A stretch of 60,431 nucleotides of DNA, taken from assembly GCA_021781555.1 (NCBI GenBank), contig JAJXWQ010000011.1:1-60431 (forward strand), read 5' to 3'. This DNA comes from a bacterium (GTDB lineage Bacteria; Cyanobacteriota; Sericytochromatia; S15B-MN24; VGJW01). The notes under the pieces were generated by a model. It did not search any database and was not told the origin of the DNA. It saw only the letters and a list, made by a program, of their open reading frames with translations. Below, piece by piece: positions 1 through 59,737 of this stretch (positions within the stretch are counted from its first letter, which is position 1; the number at the start of each line of letters is the position of its first letter). The position numbers and the translations under genes were made by a program.

Positions 1-331
1 CTACGCTGCGCAACCGGGCCCCGTTTGACTCCTTTGGCCCGATCCTTTCGTGCCGGGGACCGGTTTGAAAGGTCCCTCTGCGCGGTCGCTACGCTGCGCA
101 ACCGGGGCCCGTTTCTTGTTGGGTGTGAACGGGTCCCTCTGCGCGGTCGCTACGCTGCGCAACCGGGCCCCGTTTGACTCCTTTGGCCCGATCCTTTCGT
201 GCCGGGGACCGGTTTGAAAGGTCCCTCTGCGCGGTCGCTACGCTGCGCAACCGGGGCCCGTTTGACTCCTTTGGCCCGATCCTTTCGAGCCGGGGCCCGT
301 TTGACCCTTTTGGCCCGATCGCACCTCGGGG
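1..331 (-). repeat. Degenerate tandem array of the CTAG-bounded palindromic repeat
   Basis: Four head-to-tail partial units begin at about 1, 89, 150 and 238. The first and third (88 bp each) are identical; the second is shorter (61 bp) and the fourth runs into unrelated sequence after about 325. Each unit carries the GGGCCC-containing arm, the GCGCGGTCGC loop and the CCTTTGGCCCGATC segment of the repeat family seen throughout the window. The array stops just before the stop codon of the neighbouring minus-strand gene. It contains short open frames on both strands, but these only follow the repeat and I do not regard them as genes. Confidence 0.85.
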
Positions 332-4512: not shown

Positions 4513-5150
4513 TCGCCGGTAGACCGCCTGGAAGCCGGCGCTGGCGGGTTGCCGCCGCGTCTCTCGTGCCGCTCATGGCCCTGGGCTGCTCCCTGAAGGG
4601 CCTGCCTCCGACCGATCCGTTCGCCGGTCTCATCTCGACCGATGGGGGGGCGGCGGTGCCCGACCTGGCGGCCCCCGCGGCCTCGGCCACTGCGAAGCAG
4701 ATCCCGTCCACGACTCCGACCCCGAGTGGCAGCAGCCGGACCCCGGTCCCTGGCAGCAGCCCGACCCCCGGTGGCAGCAGCCCGACCCCCGGTGGCGGCG
4801 GTCAGACCCTGGCTCCCAGCAGCCCGACTCCGATCCCTGGCGGCAGCCCGACCCCGAGTGGCAGCAGCCGGACCCCGGTCCCTGGCAGTAGCCCGACCCC
4901 CGGTGGCGGCGGTCAGACCCCGGCTCCCGGCGGCAGTCCGGCCCCCGGTGGCGGTGGTCAGACCCCGGCTCCCGGCAGTAGTCCGACCCCCGGTGGCAGC
5001 ACCCCGAAGCCCACCCCTACCCCGAAGCCCACCCCCACCCCGACTCCGGTTCCCACGGTGTCACCCCAGGGCCAGGCCGCGCTCGCCATCGGTGACACGC
5101 TTCCGGACACCCAGTCTCCGCTGCAGAACTTGCTGTCTCACCAGCCCTGA
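4509..5150 (+). CDS. Lipoprotein with long Pro/Thr/Gly/Ser repeat linker
   Basis: A 213-residue predicted lipoprotein starting on a GTG that overlaps the previous stop (GTGA). The signal peptide ends in ALGC with Cys at 27. From about residue 65 to 185 the chain is almost wholly repeats of the form PGSSPTPGGS / PGGGGQTPAP followed by a run of PKPTPTPTP. This is a flexible, envelope-spanning type of linker with potential O-glycosylation sites. The remaining C-terminus is short and has no known domain. It closes the lipoprotein operon. The repeat DNA may vary in copy number between strains. Confidence 0.75.
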   Translation: MIAGRPPGSRRWRVAAASLVPLMALGCSLKGLPPTDPFAGLISTDGGAAVPDLAAPAASATAKQIPSTTPTPSGSSRTPVPGSSPTPGGSSPTPGGGGQTLAPSSPTPIPGGSPTPSGSSRTPVPGSSPTPGGGGQTPAPGGSPAPGGGGQTPAPGSSPTPGGSTPKPTPTPKPTPTPTPVPTVSPQGQAALAIGDTLPDTQSPLQNLLSHQP

Positions 5151-5371: not shown

Positions 5372-6490
5372 ATGGCGAGGGTCGATAGCGAGTTCCGAGC
5401 GGCGGTGCTGGCCGGCACCGCTCCGCGGAATGCCGCGCTTCCGGCCGTTCCAGCCGGTGAGCCACGGCCCTTCATTTTCCATGACACGCGATCCCTCACG
5501 CGTGGCGTCAAGAGCTCGATGCGCTGGTCGCAGACGCGTTTTGGCCGGGACGAGTCGGGCAGTGGCCTCGGTGGCGATCACCTGGATCTCTCGGGCCAGG
5601 GCAAAGCGGGCTCACGCGCCGCAGGCGATCCGCAGCTGGCCGATGCCCACCAGACGCTGACCGATGTCCTGGCGGAGCTGTCTCGCCGTGGTCTGGCCGA
5701 TCACCCCCGCGCCCGTGCCCTGGAGCACCTTCGAGACACGCTCTCGGGACCGGCGTCGCCAGGGGGGCCCGCGCCGGCGTCCCACCCAGGTTCCTGGCAG
5801 GCCGTTCGCGACGAGGCCGCGGATCTTTGGGAGGCACTGCTGGCCACGATCCGGTCCCCTGCCGGGCGGGTGGCCCACAAGACGGACCTTCTCGCCCGGG
5901 CGCAACAGGCTGCTGTCCGCGGCGATCCGGCCGGCGAGCGGCGGTGGCTGCGGCGCGTCCTCGTGGCCGATCCCGGCGACGCGACGGCCCACGTCAGGCT
6001 CGGGCGCCTGCACCTGGATGCCGGCCAGCTCGCCGAGGCCGAGCCTCACCTGGGGGCGGCTGTCGCGGCTCGGCCCAAGGAAGCAGCCGCCCACCTCGCT
6101 CTGGGCGAGCTCCACTACCGGCGCAAGGATCCCGACGCGGCGATCGCTTCTTTCGGCAGGGCCTTGCGGCTCAACCCCGATCATTCCGATGCCAACGCCT
6201 GGCTCGGCATCCTCTCCTACGACGCCCAACGTCCCGTCGAGGCTCAGCGCTTCCTCGAGCGCGCCATCGCCCTGGACTCCAACAACTCCGTGGCTCGCTA
6301 CTATCTGGCGCAGCTGAGCCTGGCCAATGGAGACAAGCTCCGGGCGGACTTCCAGCTTTCGGTTTTCCGCCGCCTCGAGCCCACGGCGCGGCTGGATCGT
6401 TTTTCCAGCACGGCCGATTCCCTGGCGTCCGGCTCGACGGGCAAGGGCTACAGTGGCTGGCAGATGCCACGTCGCGCAGCTGCCCGCTAG
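5372..6490 (+). CDS. TPR-repeat protein
   Basis: A 372-residue soluble protein. The N-terminal half is low-complexity and Pro/Arg-rich with no known domain. From about residue 170 to 335 there are four to five tetratricopeptide repeats, with the expected spacing (for example LGRLHLDAGQLAEAEPHL and LGELHYRRKDPDAAIASFGRAL). These should form a protein-binding superhelix. I chose the ATG at 5372, which has GGAGAGGG about 13 nt upstream; an open frame extends further 5' to 5273 but has unlikely composition. The TAG stop is the border CTAG of the following repeat. The gene lies upstream of motA-motB in the same direction but is separated by two repeat copies. Its partner is unknown. Confidence 0.75.
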   Translation: MARVDSEFRAAVLAGTAPRNAALPAVPAGEPRPFIFHDTRSLTRGVKSSMRWSQTRFGRDESGSGLGGDHLDLSGQGKAGSRAAGDPQLADAHQTLTDVLAELSRRGLADHPRARALEHLRDTLSGPASPGGPAPASHPGSWQAVRDEAADLWEALLATIRSPAGRVAHKTDLLARAQQAAVRGDPAGERRWLRRVLVADPGDATAHVRLGRLHLDAGQLAEAEPHLGAAVAARPKEAAAHLALGELHYRRKDPDAAIASFGRALRLNPDHSDANAWLGILSYDAQRPVEAQRFLERAIALDSNNSVARYYLAQLSLANGDKLRADFQLSVFRRLEPTARLDRFSSTADSLASGSTGKGYSGWQMPRRAAAR

Positions 6491-6683
6491 GCTGCTCCCG
6501 GTTTGACGGGTTCGGGCCAAAGGAGTCAAACGGGGCCCGGTTGCGCAGCGCAGCGACCGCGCAGAGGGACCCGTTCAAGCTGCAAGCGGGTTAGCAAGGT
6601 TCGGGCCAAAGGAGTCAAACGGGGCCCGGTTGCGCAGCGCAGCGACCGCGCAGAGGGACCCGTTCAAGCTGCAAAAGATATAG
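6487..6683 (+). repeat. Two tandem copies of the palindromic repeat
   Basis: Copy one spans 6487-6594 (108 bp, CTAG at the left border, TTAG at the right). Copy two begins on that same TTAG and runs to 6683, lacking about 15 bp near its left end. Both belong to the variant with TTCGGGCCAAAGGAGTC and CAGCGCAGCG. The left CTAG contains the stop codon of the TPR gene. Confidence 0.9.
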
Positions 6684-12539: not shown

Positions 12540-12647
12540 CTAGGCCTTTTGCAGTTTGAACGGGTCCCTCTGCGCGGTCGCTTCGCTGCGCAACCGGGCC
12601 CCGTTTGACTCATCGGGCTCGATCCATTCAAACCGGGAGCACTCTAG
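12540..12647 (-). repeat. Full copy of the palindromic repeat
   Basis: A 108-bp copy, CTAG at both borders (12540-12543 and 12644-12647), in the reverse orientation. It belongs to the variant with the ATCGGGCTCGATCC segment. A second fragment of the other variant, with GCGGGGCCCCGTTTGACTCC, lies at 12714-12752 just upstream of the MFS gene. Confidence 0.9.
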
Positions 12648-12713: not shown

Positions 12714-12752
12714 GGGGCCCCGTTTGACTCCTTTGGGCCGAACCACAGGGGG
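12714..12752 (-). repeat. Fragment of the palindromic repeat
   Basis: A 39-bp remnant with the GGGGCCCCGTTTGACTCC arm and CTTTGGGCC segment, belonging to the second sequence variant. It directly precedes the putative promoter of the downstream MFS gene. Between it and the full copy at 12540-12647, the 66 bp hold nothing I recognise apart from an AT-rich TTAAAT. Confidence 0.6.
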
Positions 12753-14150: not shown

Positions 14151-14777
14151 ATGACTTCTCGCTTTGCAGTTGGCCTTGCTGGCGCTCTGATTCTCGCATC
14201 GGCACTTCCGCTCCGGGCCCAACCGGCGGCCATGCACCCGCCGCTGCCGCCGGCCCCGAGGATGTCGGGCATGCCTTGCATGGTGGCGTCTGGGAGCATG
14301 CGATCCGGGATGATGCCCTGGGGGCGGATGGGCGCGGGGCGGATGGGCGCGGGGCCGATGGGAATGATGGGCCGCAGGTTTGCCGGGCGCCAGGCGCTGC
14401 TTGCCGAGGCGCAGGCCAAGCAGCAGGCCGACCTGCAGGGCAGCCTGCAGGCGCTGCTCAACCAGCTTGTCGGCTCGGGCAAGGCGATCGTCCGGGTGCA
14501 CCTGGAGCTCGAGCGGGCTTTTCGCCGCCTGCACAACACCCTCTACTCGCCGGTCAAGGTCAACGGCAAGCCGGTTGCCGGGCGCTTCGACGAGCAGGAA
14601 AGCTGGACGGTCGTCCCGCCCGGCGGCATCCAGCGCATGACCATCGCGGTGCTGCTGCCGACCAGTGTCGGCGCGGCCGAGGTTCCCAAGCTCGCCGCGG
14701 CCATCGCGGCTGCTGCCGGCCTGGATCCGGCTCGTCGCGACGTCCTCGCGATCCACAGGGTCTCGCTGGCACCCTAG
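14151..14777 (+). CDS. Secreted protein with FliF/YscJ C-terminal-like domain and Met-rich linker
   Basis: A 208-residue exported protein. The ATG at 14151 has GGAGG 7 nt upstream; the signal peptide ends near residue 24 (LPLRAQ). Residues 38-76 are extremely Met/Gly-rich. Residues about 98-208 resemble the periplasmic C-terminal domain of the flagellar MS-ring protein FliF: ALLNQLVGSGKAIVRVHLEL corresponds to the LL..IVG.GN..V.V...LD segment, and GGIQRMTIAVLL...AAGLDPARRDVLAI to the G.I.RLSVAVLVD...VG.D..RGD.V.V segment. Unlike FliF, it has no ring-building motifs and no membrane anchors. It may be an accessory to the flagellum or another ring, or an unrelated look-alike. The stop TAG is the CTAG border of a repeat. 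Confidence 0.6.
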   Translation: MTSRFAVGLAGALILASALPLRAQPAAMHPPLPPAPRMSGMPCMVASGSMRSGMMPWGRMGAGRMGAGPMGMMGRRFAGRQALLAEAQAKQQADLQGSLQALLNQLVGSGKAIVRVHLELERAFRRLHNTLYSPVKVNGKPVAGRFDEQESWTVVPPGGIQRMTIAVLLPTSVGAAEVPKLAAAIAAAAGLDPARRDVLAIHRVSLAP

Positions 14778-14941
14778 ACCTTTTGCAGTTTGAACGGGTC
14801 CCTCTGCGCGGTCGCTTCGCTGCGCAACCGGGCCCCGTTTGACTCATCGGGCTCGATCCATTCAAACCGGGAGCACTCTGGGCCTTTTGCAGTTTGAACG
14901 GGTCCCTCTGCGCGGTCGCTTCGCTGCGCAACCGGGCCCCG
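14774..14941 (-). repeat. One full and one truncated copy of the palindromic repeat
   Basis: Copy one is 14774-14881 (108 bp). It starts with the CTAG that ends the upstream gene and ends on CTGG, a one-base variant of the border. Copy two shares that tetranucleotide and stops at 14941 after the GGGCCCCG arm, missing about 44 bp. The stop codon of the convergent glycosyltransferase gene follows within 10 bp. Confidence 0.9.
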
Positions 14942-20348: not shown

Positions 20349-20456
20349 CTAGAGTGCTCCCGGTTTGAATGGATCGAGCCCGATGAGTCAAACGGGGCCC
20401 GGTTGCGCAGCGAAGCGACCGCGCAGAGGGCCCCCTTCAAACTGCAAAAGGCCTAG
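20349..20456 (+). repeat. Full copy of the palindromic repeat
   Basis: A 108-bp copy with CTAG at both borders (20349-20352 and 20453-20456). Unlike most copies it lies between divergent genes rather than at a gene end. Confidence 0.92.
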
Positions 20457-37130: not shown

Positions 37131-37342
37131 TTAGAGTGCTCCCGGTTTGAATGGATCGAGCCCGATGAGTCAAACGGGGCCCGGTTGCGCAGCGAAGCGA
37201 CCGCGCAGAGGGCCCCGTTCAAACTGCAAAAGGCCCAGAGTGCTCCCGGTTTGAATGGATCGAGCCCGAGGAGTCAAACGGGGCCCGGTTGCGCAGCGAA
37301 GCGACCGCGCAGAGGGCCCCGTTCAAACTGCAAAAGGTCTAG
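37131..37342 (+). repeat. Two exact-length tandem copies of the palindromic repeat
   Basis: Copy one is 37131-37238 and copy two is 37235-37342. They share CCAG at 37235-37238, a variant of CTAG. The outer borders are TTAG and CTAG. The two copies are almost identical, which suggests recent duplication with a 104-bp period. Confidence 0.93.
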
Positions 37343-41780: not shown

Positions 41781-41888
41781 CTAGAGTGCTCCCGGTTTGA
41801 ATGGATCGAGCCCGATGAGTCAAACGGGGCCCGGTTGCGCAGCGAAGCGACCGCGCAGAGGGCCCCGTTCAAACTGCAAAAGGCCTAG
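41781..41888 (+). repeat. Full copy of the palindromic repeat
   Basis: A 108-bp copy with CTAG at both ends, between two convergent genes. The right-hand CTAG (41885-41888) contains the stop codon (TAG on the minus strand) of the 81-residue gene. Confidence 0.93.
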
Positions 41889-46244: not shown

Positions 46245-46424
46245 CGCGGGAGCGAATGACGGCTGACCACCAGGGTCTCGCCATCATGGCGCGAGCGCCG
46301 GGCATCAGCCACGGCCTCCAGCCTTTCTGAAGAGCTCACAAGAGGACGTCTTCTGGTTGTCCTGCAACAACGGGAGGGACACCGTCCGCGGGACGACTGG
46401 CGGCGCCAGGGTGATCCAGGTTGG

Positions 46425-46500
46425 ATAGGTTCGGGCCCGAGGAGTCCAACGGGGCCCGGTCGCCACGCAACCGAGCCCCGTTCAAACCGCAAAAGGTCAG
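46425..46500 (+). repeat. Shortened copy of the palindromic repeat
   Basis: A 76-bp copy with ATAG at the left and GTCAG at the right. The loop has lost about 20 bp (CGGTCGCCACGCAACCG replaces the usual segment). The last bases contribute to the TGA stop of the minus-strand TPR-GT2 gene. The region 46245-46424 shows no gene I can support. Confidence 0.8.
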
Positions 46501-49904: not shown

Positions 49905-49911
49905 CACTGTG

Positions 49912-50077
49912 CCAGGGAGCTCCCGGTTTGAGTGGATCGGGCCAAAGGCGTCAAACGGGGCCCGGTTGCAAAGTGGTGCCGGACGCAAGGGAACGCAGCG
50001 AGAGCCGCTTGCTCGCTGGCTGTTGTGCGTGCGGCCGGAGCGCGCAGGGGGATCCGTTCGAACTGCAAAAGGTATCG
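49912..50077 (+). repeat. Expanded copy of the palindromic repeat
   Basis: A 166-bp copy. The ends match the family (CCAGGGAGCTCCCGGTTTGAG at the left, CGAACTGCAAAAGG at the right). The usual inner loop is replaced by about 90 bp containing its own inverted segments (GCAGCGAGAGCCGCTTGCTCGCTGGC region). It sits between two co-directional minus-strand genes. Confidence 0.75.
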
Positions 50078-50079
50078 AC

Positions 50080-52881
50080 TCAACGGCTCCCCCAACCGGC
50101 ATGGGCTGCATGGAACGACGCCCGCCGCAGCCCGTCCGGACTCGTGTCCGCCAGGACCGCCAGACCACATGCGACGGCCTCCCGACGGCACCTGTCGTCT
50201 CCGACGTCGAGGTATGCCTGACAGGCGCTGTACAGCCCAGCCAGGGACTCCCTGGCGATCGCCTGGCTCACGATCACGACGTCCGCGATGGCCTCGGGAT
50301 CGTGACCCAACCTCGTCAGCTCACCGAGCACACGCTCCTCGATCCCCGCAGCGTCCGGGCCGGCCCTCAGCACCAAGGCGACGTCATCCTCGGGCCCGAA
50401 GCTCTGCAAGTACGTGTCGAGTGCCAAGACCCAAGCCGCCGAATCCCACCGTGGGATCGCCAGGAAATTGAAACGCCGCAGGCCTTCAATCTGTAGCGGC
50501 CGCGCGTCCGGATGGAACACCCCGGGATCGACGTGATCGGCCTGAAACCGCCTCGGCGTGATCCTGGACAGCTCGCGCATGCGAGCCTCGTACCGATCGG
50601 CCACGTGCTTCCAGGTATAGGCGCCGGCGATGCGCGCACGCGCCTTCATGCCTTTGGATCTGGCCTCCTCGGCGTGGTCGACGACGTGCTGCATGGAGCG
50701 TGCGAGTGCGGCGACGTCCGGTTCGGCCAGGACATATTCGATGGCGGCAGGCGAGCTGCCCTCGGGGATACAGCGAACGAGGCTGGCGGGCACCAGATAC
50801 GATGTTTCGTCGTCGCAATAGTCGAGAGCGGCCCCGAAGCCCGTCACGATGGTGGGGAGGCCGGAGGCCATGGCCTCGGCGATCGGCATGCAGAAGGCTT
50901 CGCCGCGATAGGGGGCGACCAGCACGTCGCAGGCGCGGTACAGAGCAGCCATCTGGACCTCGGTCAGATCGTCCTCGACGAGCTCGACCTCGATCCCAGG
51001 AGCCCTGGCGCGAATCGTCTCGACCAGCTCGCGCGCCGAGACCCCCTGATAGAAGGTCTGCACGCCCGTGGCCTTCACGACCAGGCACGTGTTCGTCGCA
51101 TTTCCGAATCCGGCGGCATAGGCCAGCAACGCCGCATCCATGCCCTTGCGATGGATGGCGCTGCCGACGAAGAGGAAGCGAAACGAACGGTGGGTCCCGA
51201 GCGGATAGCTGGGGCCATCGGGCCGGAAGATCTCGACATCGACCCCGTTGGGGACCACGACGACCCGCTCGTCCGGAACCCCGGCCCGCGTGAAAGCGGC
51301 CTTGGAGTAGGTCGAGGGGGTCCAGACCTCGTCCACGCTCTCGAGCAGATACGGCAGCCAGGCCTCGGGAATGCTGCCGTACTCCCAGGGCTGTAGCATC
51401 ACCCAGGCGCCGTCCCGCGGCGGCTCGAACTTGGGAGGCCACAGGTGCCGGACGTGCACCTGCGGGGGAGAGCTCGTCGGCTTGCGATGGGCGGCCTCAA
51501 TGGCCATGAGCCGAGGATCCCCCATGCTCGTGAACTGAGCCGGCTCGAAGGGCTCGATGGAGATCTCGAGCCCCTGGCGATCGAGAAACTGCGAGCAAAC
51601 CTCGCGGTTGATGAGGGCGAGGCTGTGATAGGCGAACTGGGTACCCTCCCAGATCACCGTGACCTGGTCGCGGCCTCGCGTGGAGGTATCCTCGCCCGCT
51701 CGAAAACGACGGGGGATGAGGCCCGCCAGAGCCCGGATGCGAGCCTCGTACCGATCGGCAGCGTGCTTCCAGGTAAAGGCGCCCACGATGCGTTCTCGCG
51801 CCCTGGCGCCCCTGGCACGGGCCTCGTCGGGGTGGGCCAGCGCGTGCTCCATCAGCTCCACGAGAACGTCGATGTCGGGGCTCGCCAGCCAGTACTCGAG
51901 GGCTGGCGGGGGGAAATCCAGCAAGTTGCACCGGATGGTTCCAGCTGGCACCAGATACGACGTCTCGTCGTCGCAGTAGTCCAGCGCGGCCCCGGATCCG
52001 GTGACAAGGGTCGGCAGGCCGGTAGCCATGGCCTCCGCGATCGGCATGCAGAAGCCCTCGCCCCGATACGGAGCGACCAGCACGTCGCACGCCCGGTACA
52101 GGGCAGCCATCTGGGCCTCTGTCAGATCGTCCTCGATCAGCTCGACCTCGAGGCCAGGGTCCCGGGCCCAGGCGGCTTGCACCATGCCGCGGGCCGAGTG
52201 GTCCTTGTAGACGGACGCAGCGCCCGTCCCCTTGATGACGAGACACGCATCCGCGTGACTCCCGACGGCCCGGGCATAGGCGGCCAGCGTGACGTCCAGT
52301 CCCTTGCGAGCTTCCGCGTTGCCGACGAAGAGGAACTTGAACGGGCGAGCGGTCTTGAGCGGGAACTTTGGCCCCTCGGGGTTGAAAAGATCGGGGTCCA
52401 CTCCGTTGGGAATCACGACGACGCGCTCGTCGGGAATCCCTGCCAGGGTGAAGGCCCGCTTTGAAAAGGTCGAGGGGGTCCAGACCTCGTCGACTCGGTC
52501 CAGAATGTGGGGGACCCAGGTCCGGGGGATGCAGCCGTATTCCCAGGGTTGCATCAGCACCCACGCCCCGCTGCCAGGGGGCTCGAACTTGGGAGGCCAC
52601 ATATGCCGCACATGCACCTGGGCCGGCGAGCCACCCTGGCGGCGGTGGGCTGCCTCCAGCGCGACCAGCTTGGCATCCCCCCCGCTCGAGAACTGGGCCG
52701 GCTCGTAGGGCTCGATCGAGAGTTCGAGCCCCCGGCGATCCAGGAGCTGCGAGCAGACCTCGCGGTTGATGAGAGCGAGGCTGTGATAGGCGAACTGGGT
52801 GCCTTCCCAGACCACCGTGGCTGGCGCAAGGGGTCGGCCGGGGACGATACCGTCCAGATGACCGGCGCTAGCGTCTACCAT
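50080..52881 (-). CDS. Tandem GT4-GT4 glycosyltransferase with C-terminal module
   Basis: A 933-residue protein built from two consecutive complete GT4 units. Unit one is about 23-397 and unit two about 407-781. Both start VxWEGTQFAYHSLALINREV and share PPKFEPP, WTPSTxSK, IPNGVD or VPNGVD, and DVLVAPYRGE.FCMPIAEAMA, so they arose by duplication. Residues about 782-933 match a module seen in three other glycosyltransferases here. The family uses nucleotide-sugar donors; two units could add two residues or one may be structural. The ATG at 52881 starts just before the first unit; the frame continues upstream to 53037 without a ribosome binding site. Confidence 0.85.
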   Translation of the reverse strand: MVDASAGHLDGIVPGRPLAPATVVWEGTQFAYHSLALINREVCSQLLDRRGLELSIEPYEPAQFSSGGDAKLVALEAAHRRQGGSPAQVHVRHMWPPKFEPPGSGAWVLMQPWEYGCIPRTWVPHILDRVDEVWTPSTFSKRAFTLAGIPDERVVVIPNGVDPDLFNPEGPKFPLKTARPFKFLFVGNAEARKGLDVTLAAYARAVGSHADACLVIKGTGAASVYKDHSARGMVQAAWARDPGLEVELIEDDLTEAQMAALYRACDVLVAPYRGEGFCMPIAEAMATGLPTLVTGSGAALDYCDDETSYLVPAGTIRCNLLDFPPPALEYWLASPDIDVLVELMEHALAHPDEARARGARARERIVGAFTWKHAADRYEARIRALAGLIPRRFRAGEDTSTRGRDQVTVIWEGTQFAYHSLALINREVCSQFLDRQGLEISIEPFEPAQFTSMGDPRLMAIEAAHRKPTSSPPQVHVRHLWPPKFEPPRDGAWVMLQPWEYGSIPEAWLPYLLESVDEVWTPSTYSKAAFTRAGVPDERVVVVPNGVDVEIFRPDGPSYPLGTHRSFRFLFVGSAIHRKGMDAALLAYAAGFGNATNTCLVVKATGVQTFYQGVSARELVETIRARAPGIEVELVEDDLTEVQMAALYRACDVLVAPYRGEAFCMPIAEAMASGLPTIVTGFGAALDYCDDETSYLVPASLVRCIPEGSSPAAIEYVLAEPDVAALARSMQHVVDHAEEARSKGMKARARIAGAYTWKHVADRYEARMRELSRITPRRFQADHVDPGVFHPDARPLQIEGLRRFNFLAIPRWDSAAWVLALDTYLQSFGPEDDVALVLRAGPDAAGIEERVLGELTRLGHDPEAIADVVIVSQAIARESLAGLYSACQAYLDVGDDRCRREAVACGLAVLADTSPDGLRRASFHAAHAGWGSR

Positions 52882-59526: not shown

Positions 59527-59633
59527 GGCGCCTCGATCACGGGTCTCACGACCTGCATCAGCCGGCTCACGACCTCGTACTCGAGCAGCGGCGCCAGTGC
59601 GACTCCGTTGTACAGGAACGGCTCGCCCTCTAG
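59523..59633 (-). pseudogene. 3' remnant of a gene cut off at the repeat border
   Basis: On the minus strand an open frame of about 35 codons runs from the repeat border CTAG (59630-59633) to a TGA at 59523-59525. It reads EGEPFLYNGVALAPLLEYEV and continues to VVRPVIEAP. It overlaps the next gene by ATGA, the normal operon junction in this window, so it looks like the true C-terminus of a lost upstream gene. The 5' part is replaced by the repeat and insertion-sequence DNA. The family is not recognised. Confidence 0.5.
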
Positions 59634-59737
59634 GCCTTTTGCAGTTTGAACGGGGCCCTCTGTGCGCTCGCTTCGCTGCGCAACCGGGCCCCGTTTGACT
59701 CATCGGGCTCGATCCATTCAAACCGGGAGCACTCTAG
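59630..59737 (-). repeat. Full copy of the palindromic repeat
   Basis: A 108-bp copy with CTAG at both ends (59630-59633 and 59734-59737), in reverse orientation. Its left border truncates a coding region and its right border abuts the left end of an IS1380-like element. Confidence 0.93.

Follow-up and report, generated by a model that had tools for sequence, protein, structure and literature searches.

A dispersed single-hairpin repeat in a relative of Cyanobacteria is mobile and probably transposes as single-stranded DNA

What is known of the systems that come closest to the repeat described here? IS200/IS605 elements such as IS608 insert 3' of a fixed target tetranucleotide (PMC5934647), as we infer for the repeat, and PATEs follow the same rule of a target on the left and the element's own end on the right (PMC3119063). 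With both the repeat has in common the lack of terminal inverted repeats, a subterminal palindrome, the absence of a target duplication, copies too short to code, and insertion 3' of a fixed tetranucleotide that is kept on the left while the element supplies its own on the right (PMC3119063; PMC5934647). It also resembles the REP and REPIN sequences and their RAYTs, with hundreds of short palindromes that carry a guide-like tetranucleotide at the foot of the hairpin (PMC6006769; PMC8266576), and with a Y1 gene that is present once and inherited vertically. By what route REP-like repeats spread has in general yet to be proven. Class 1 TnpA-Y1 proteins belong either to mobile insertion sequences (subclass 1.1, multi-copy) or to a repeat-free group (subclass 1.2), whose members have a Y---Q--HH motif and a C-terminal domain (Quentin et al., 2018; PMC6006769). 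In that classification, a class 1 Y1 protein that goes together with a dispersed family of hairpins would be a novelty. The fixed length and the YTAG borders of the repeat, finally, recall IS5-group and other IS-derived MITEs.

The window that we analysed, a stretch of 60,431 nucleotides, is contig C152 of the source genome (G000; 3.82 Mb, 181 contigs, 98.65% complete), whose host belongs to a little-studied branch related to Cyanobacteria. As an earlier note on this DNA had stated, it holds eight full copies of the repeat, each exactly 108 bp between the outer tetranucleotides. Our reference copy (41781..41888, plus strand) consists of a left CTAG, a 100-nt body and a right CTAG, and 11 further places in the genome are identical to it over all 108 nt. 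Also on the plus strand are an older copy at 6487..6594, followed by a second partial unit to 6684, a young copy at 20349..20456, and a dimer whose first unit (37131..37238) has TTAG as left border and whose second unit (37235..37342) has CTAG as right border. On the minus strand lie young copies at 12540..12647 and 59630..59737, and a copy at 14774..14881 that forms a dimer with a truncated unit (to 14942). The partial copies listed in the note could all be located, though those at 12714 and 29476 are short fragments. They include an old degenerate array of hairpin units (1..331, minus strand) and two old copies on the plus strand, one with a shortened hairpin (46405..46496) and one with about 50 bp of extra sequence in it (49911..50074).

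Genome-wide, a 23-nt pattern of the hairpin core has 434 matches in the 3.82 Mb and a 21-nt pattern of the left arm has 245, while the reversed control patterns have 0 each, which excludes a chance origin of the repeat. Among 78 intact copies of G000 that were readable with both flanks, 53 differ from the reference copy by 0 or 1 of 100 body bases. Many contigs (C16, C23, C69, C70, C71 and others) start or stop inside copies, so that the element breaks the assembly and its real copy number is probably higher. Plasmid and viral contigs gave no match to the repeat DNA, and Rfam gave none above threshold. In some old arrays (L091:15087-15272, L094:15318-15513, L075:2297-2460) only the hairpin and the right tail are repeated, with a period of about 59 nt and without left arm or CTAG; their origin, perhaps by slippage, would differ from that of the 104-nt arrays discussed below.

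That the repeat is mobile we regard as practically certain. The closest genome compared, G001 (bacterium isolate DBS2-1.bin124, JAJYIO01), belongs to the same genus, and much of the DNA common to the two is about 85% identical. The joined flanks of 19 young G000 copies served as queries against it. At the site of the window copy 12540, G001 (contig C126) is uninterrupted and both flanks are conserved, the junction reading GATGA-CTAG-AGTGTC in G000 and GATGA-ATAG-AGTGTC in G001. Empty sites are also found for the copies C6:16346 and C46:77045, for two copies on C18, where the left flank of one is patchy, and for a TTAG site on C105; conversely, two old G001 copies (sites A and D) are missing from G000. 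The empty sites are clean: left and right flanks are conserved, and the occupied site is longer by exactly 104 nt. Site 7, which has a deletion, and sites 1, 4, 5, 14 and 17, with one flank only or a patchy alignment, were left out of this count. At the G001 locus matching the reference copy, the left flank ends in one CTAG and the right flank is unrelated, which as evidence of mobility is only suggestive. The view of the earlier note that this is a recently active, non-autonomous mobile element of fixed length is thus borne out; a lack of empty sites in relatives, which it had named as the finding that would speak against mobility, is not what the congener presents.

The variation of the borders reveals where the element begins and ends. 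In G000, TTAG forms the left end of 33 copies and the right end of 1 (sign test 4e-9), and of 23 TTAG-left copies with a readable right end, 13 end in CTAG and 1 in TTAG, most of the rest deviating from CTAG by one or two bases. The borders had been described as CTAG or one-base variants, a description that does not apply equally to the two sides: the left is CTAG or TTAG, the right CTAG with scattered decay. At site 19, G001 holds the bare target TACG-TTAG-CGCGCCATG, and G000 holds TTAG-element-CTAG. From the TTAG asymmetry and this site we conclude that the left YTAG (41781..41784 in the reference copy, plus strand) is the pre-existing target, which stays 5' of the element, and that the right CTAG (41885..41888), constant whatever the left border is, represents the terminal four bases of the element. 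With every insertion, 104 nt are added immediately 3' of YTAG. The same added unit follows from head-to-tail arrays, which have a period of 104 and in which neighbours have one tetranucleotide in common; such arrays are explained if the right CTAG of one copy is the target for the next. The element ends, AGTGCTCCCGG and GCCTTTTGCAG, are unrelated except for GTTTGAA/TTCAAAC about 10 nt inside, so terminal inverted repeats are absent. A single-strand insertion rule, with YTAG on the left and CTAG on the right, is therefore highly likely.

Many of these targets are stop codons. Among 64 readable insertions there are 20 whose left TAG terminates a long GC3-rich frame that runs into the element, and 10 whose right CTA terminates a frame of this kind on the opposite strand; for comparison, such stops occur at 5 of the 61 YTAGs of the whole window, elements included. 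Insertions at CTAG or TTAG stop codons keep the stop codon. As CTAG reads identically on the two strands and borders the element left and right, an insertion there does the stop codon no damage. Among neighbouring insertions on a contig, 21 have the same and 20 the opposite orientation, so that this comparison of neighbours shows none of the bias by which lagging-strand insertion would be recognised. Hairpin cores also occur inside reading frames in related genomes: a lone core lies in frame within sufC (G002:C263:2180-2202, L173; MLSIRDLHARI-KESPVAQRGDRAAAAPETR-EILKGIDLEI...) and resembles a protein-coding palindromic insertion, and another lies in frame (NRAPVAQRSVRAEGLVAEKQ) in an apparent phage head protein gene (G001:C244:3981-4003, L182), where it is read in the frame (PVAQR) also used in sufC.

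The constant part of the element is a hairpin with a covarying stem and a conserved loop. In the reference copy this main hairpin occupies 41823..41869 (plus strand), and the elements of structure noted earlier, a 10-bp stem (AACGGGGCCC/GGGCCCCGTT), an inner TGCGC/GCGCA stem and outer GTTTGA/TCAAAC arms, are all present. The repeat folds better than its shuffles (z -2.4 to -2.8). Its core GGTTGCGCAGCGNAGCGACCGCGCAGA is nearly unchanged across G000, G001 and G004 (Cyanobacteria bacterium NC_groundwater_1444, of another genus in the same family), and between the genera the stem has changed on both sides, from GGGGCCC/GGGCCCC in G000 to GACGCC/GGCGTC in G004. Among 24 sequences, 9 of the 10 stem pairs show two-sided changes, and the covariation score is 0.227, where shuffles give 0.107 +/- 0.015 and slid controls no more than 0.099; since relatedness inflates covariation counts, the slid controls and the cross-genus stems weigh most. 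The left arm, GTTTGA...TCAAAC (41795..41825, plus strand), includes a small hairpin, ATCG/CGAT, in the predicted fold, in which GTTTGA may alternatively pair with the right-hand TCAAAC. This left hairpin is weak, leaving one strong hairpin per element.

Could the hairpin position a guide, as in IS608? There, the cut sites TTAC and TCAA pair with the guides AAAG and GAAT just 5' of the hairpins (PMC5934647), and from both pairs we read the rule that guide base 1 complements site base 2, guide base 2 complements site base 1, and guide base 4 complements site base 4. Applied to YTAG, this rule predicts a guide A-G-N-C, whose G pairs with C or wobbles with T. The tetranucleotide AGTC stands one base 5' of the 10-bp stem (41818..41821, plus strand), and 77 of 78 young copies have preserved it; across 20 old copies of the congener it is 65-80% conserved compared with about 45-65% for neighbouring bases, which is a tendency. 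A chance fit having a probability of a few per cent, we take the match of AGTC to a guide for YTAG as supportive, not decisive. A second IS200-like guide (AGNC) was sought at the left hairpin and not found; one guide may serve both cuts, both sites being the same tetranucleotide.

Which enzyme might act on this hairpin? A search with the Pfam Y1_Tnp model finds one Y1 gene in G000 (G000:C155:45215-45640), encoding a protein of 142 aa which scores 63 bits with the NCBIfam IS200/IS605 model (cut-off 55) and 29.4 bits with the RAYT model (cut-off 80). By sequence, its orthologue in G004 is related to solved IS200 transposases. The gene is syntenic in G000 and G001, adjoining an epimerase gene, lies near such a gene in G002 too, and has a dN/dS of about 0.16 between G000 and G001 (NG86). 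A subfamily profile, built from the same four sequences, finds one member each in G000, G001, G002 and G004 (267-281 bits), the next best protein in 98 genomes scoring 69 bits. Matches to the hairpin core are confined to 4 of 292 genomes, G000 (434), G001 (8), G002 (1) and G004 (7), and among the 98 genomes searched for both, core and Y1 subfamily occur in the same four; G003, 98% complete and of the same family, has neither. As the four genomes belong to one family, this co-occurrence amounts to nearly one evolutionary event. The tyrosine motifs of the four orthologues (YLSHQ/YLTRQ/YLQNQ/YIQKQ) are of the form Y---Q. In the HUH motif, Gln takes the place of the first His in G000, G001 and G002, while G004 has His, so that the activity of the Y1 protein is uncertain, although HUQ variants with bound metal are found in circovirus Reps (PMC9973303). 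Element ends do not flank the Y1 gene. In G000 a truncated relic is present about 200 bp upstream of it, none being seen in the others, and when the surroundings of the Y1 genes were scanned with a loose pattern for hairpin relics, the matches were mostly noise. Upstream of the gene in all four genomes stands a conserved palindrome, TTGACAT-N-ATGTC (L074 about 1350-1385, L132, L130, L131), which overlaps a -35-like box and is possibly an operator. The link between enzyme and repeat is circumstantial, but that the resident Y1 moves the repeat seems to us somewhat the better bet.

Taken together, the repeat is probably a non-autonomous mini-element that transposes as a single strand, with a Y1 mobiliser, the AGTC guide and a circle step as its presumed machinery. 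In this mechanism a Y1 (HUH/tyrosine) transposase would bind the hairpin, and the guide AGTC would select YTAG, its G pairing with C or wobbling with T. The element, excised from single-stranded DNA as a circle with CTAG at its junction, would then insert 3' of a new YTAG. Less firmly, the enzyme might be the single IS200-type Y1 protein of G000, domesticated, vertically inherited and acting in trans. A more far-reaching scenario, which we put forward tentatively and with less than even confidence, is that a domesticated class 1 Y1 protein, with Gln for the first HUH His in most members, independently became a REP-like system: it would move a single-hairpin element in trans, use one AGTC guide for both cuts because the YTAG target on the left has the same four letters as the element's right end (CTAG), and would in this way target stop codons without destroying them.

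Against this stands the suggestion of the earlier note that the borders are the YTAR target duplication of an IS5-group transposon. A MITE of this or another DDE transposon, with CTAG/TTAG as a 4-bp target duplication, would explain YTAG on both sides of most copies, the exact length and the single-CTAG empty sites. A DDE target duplication, however, puts the same letters at both borders, whereas TTAG-left copies carry CTAG on the right, at an asymmetry of 33:1, and the ends are not inverted repeats; in both respects, the borders not being a duplication, the repeat differs from IS5-group and IS-derived MITEs. In its simple form this origin is refuted and we consider it very improbable, and the doubt voiced in the same note, that a different mechanism is possible, was justified. 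A static structural repeat, for instance a terminator or a nucleoid site, that multiplied through gene conversion or slippage instead of transposition would agree with the many copies at gene ends and with old arrays of 59-nt and 88-nt periods, which look like slippage products, but it is contradicted for the young subfamily by the clean empty sites with their conserved flanks and exact 104-nt gain; it, too, has very little probability.

Two further explanations concern the mover of the repeat. A single-strand mini-element could have been moved by a full IS200/IS605 element that has been lost or was not assembled, the resident Y1 protein being unrelated. The assembly is indeed broken at repeats, an IS200 element could be missing from the 181 contigs, and the resident Y1 has Gln for a catalytic His and no element ends; yet it is the only Y1 in a genome that is 98.65% complete, and hairpin core and Y1 subfamily are found together in four genomes and are both absent from G003. 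We therefore hold this to be unlikely. Elements of the IS91 or rolling-circle (Y2) kind likewise insert without target duplication next to a tetranucleotide, and G000 has one IS91-type Y2 transposase gene. However, the Y2 locus and the element share only 9-10-bp matches, and the gene lies beside a tyrosine recombinase in an ordinary IS91-like arrangement (L215, G000:C75), so that a role in moving the repeat is hardly credible.

How, then, does the single-strand mini-element preferred here compare with the described systems? It behaves as an IS200/IS605-type PATE and looks REP/RAYT-like by its copy number, hairpin and Y1 gene, and it fully meets neither definition. Unlike in PATEs and IS200/IS605 elements, its left and right tetranucleotides are the same (CTAG), and it shows a single strong hairpin and a single guide, whereas in IS200/IS605 elements both ends are equipped with them. 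No IS200/IS605 element with its ends was found in G000, whose only Y1 gene has no element ends, and it differs from PATEs in being bacterial, with about 434 cores in one genome. In contrast to REP/RAYT systems, the Y1 of this genome is a class 1 protein with Y---Q, not a class 2 TnpA-REP with Y---NP, and falls below the RAYT cut-off; the tag at the hairpin foot is AGTC, not GT[AG]G; and the Y1 gene is not flanked by repeats in the manner of a REPtron. Within class 1, the G000 protein resembles subclass 1.1 in length, core and Y---Q motif and subclass 1.2 in low copy number, but differs from both in that one gene copy goes with a QUH motif and a family of dispersed repeats. If the proposed scenario is true, a scattered population of hairpins can be run by domesticated enzymes of the IS200 type as well as by RAYTs, and the guide-directed movement of a single-hairpin element becomes directly testable. 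The repeat family has recent copies that are nearly identical, empty sites at the level of species, a single candidate enzyme and a simple target rule of four letters.

Besides the repeat, the window contains a tandem duplication (50544-51322 and 51702-52480) with a period of 1158 bp, the copies of which are 67-85% alike, and a short tandem repeat array at 4712-5043 with periods of 45 bp and 21 bp, probably in a coding region.
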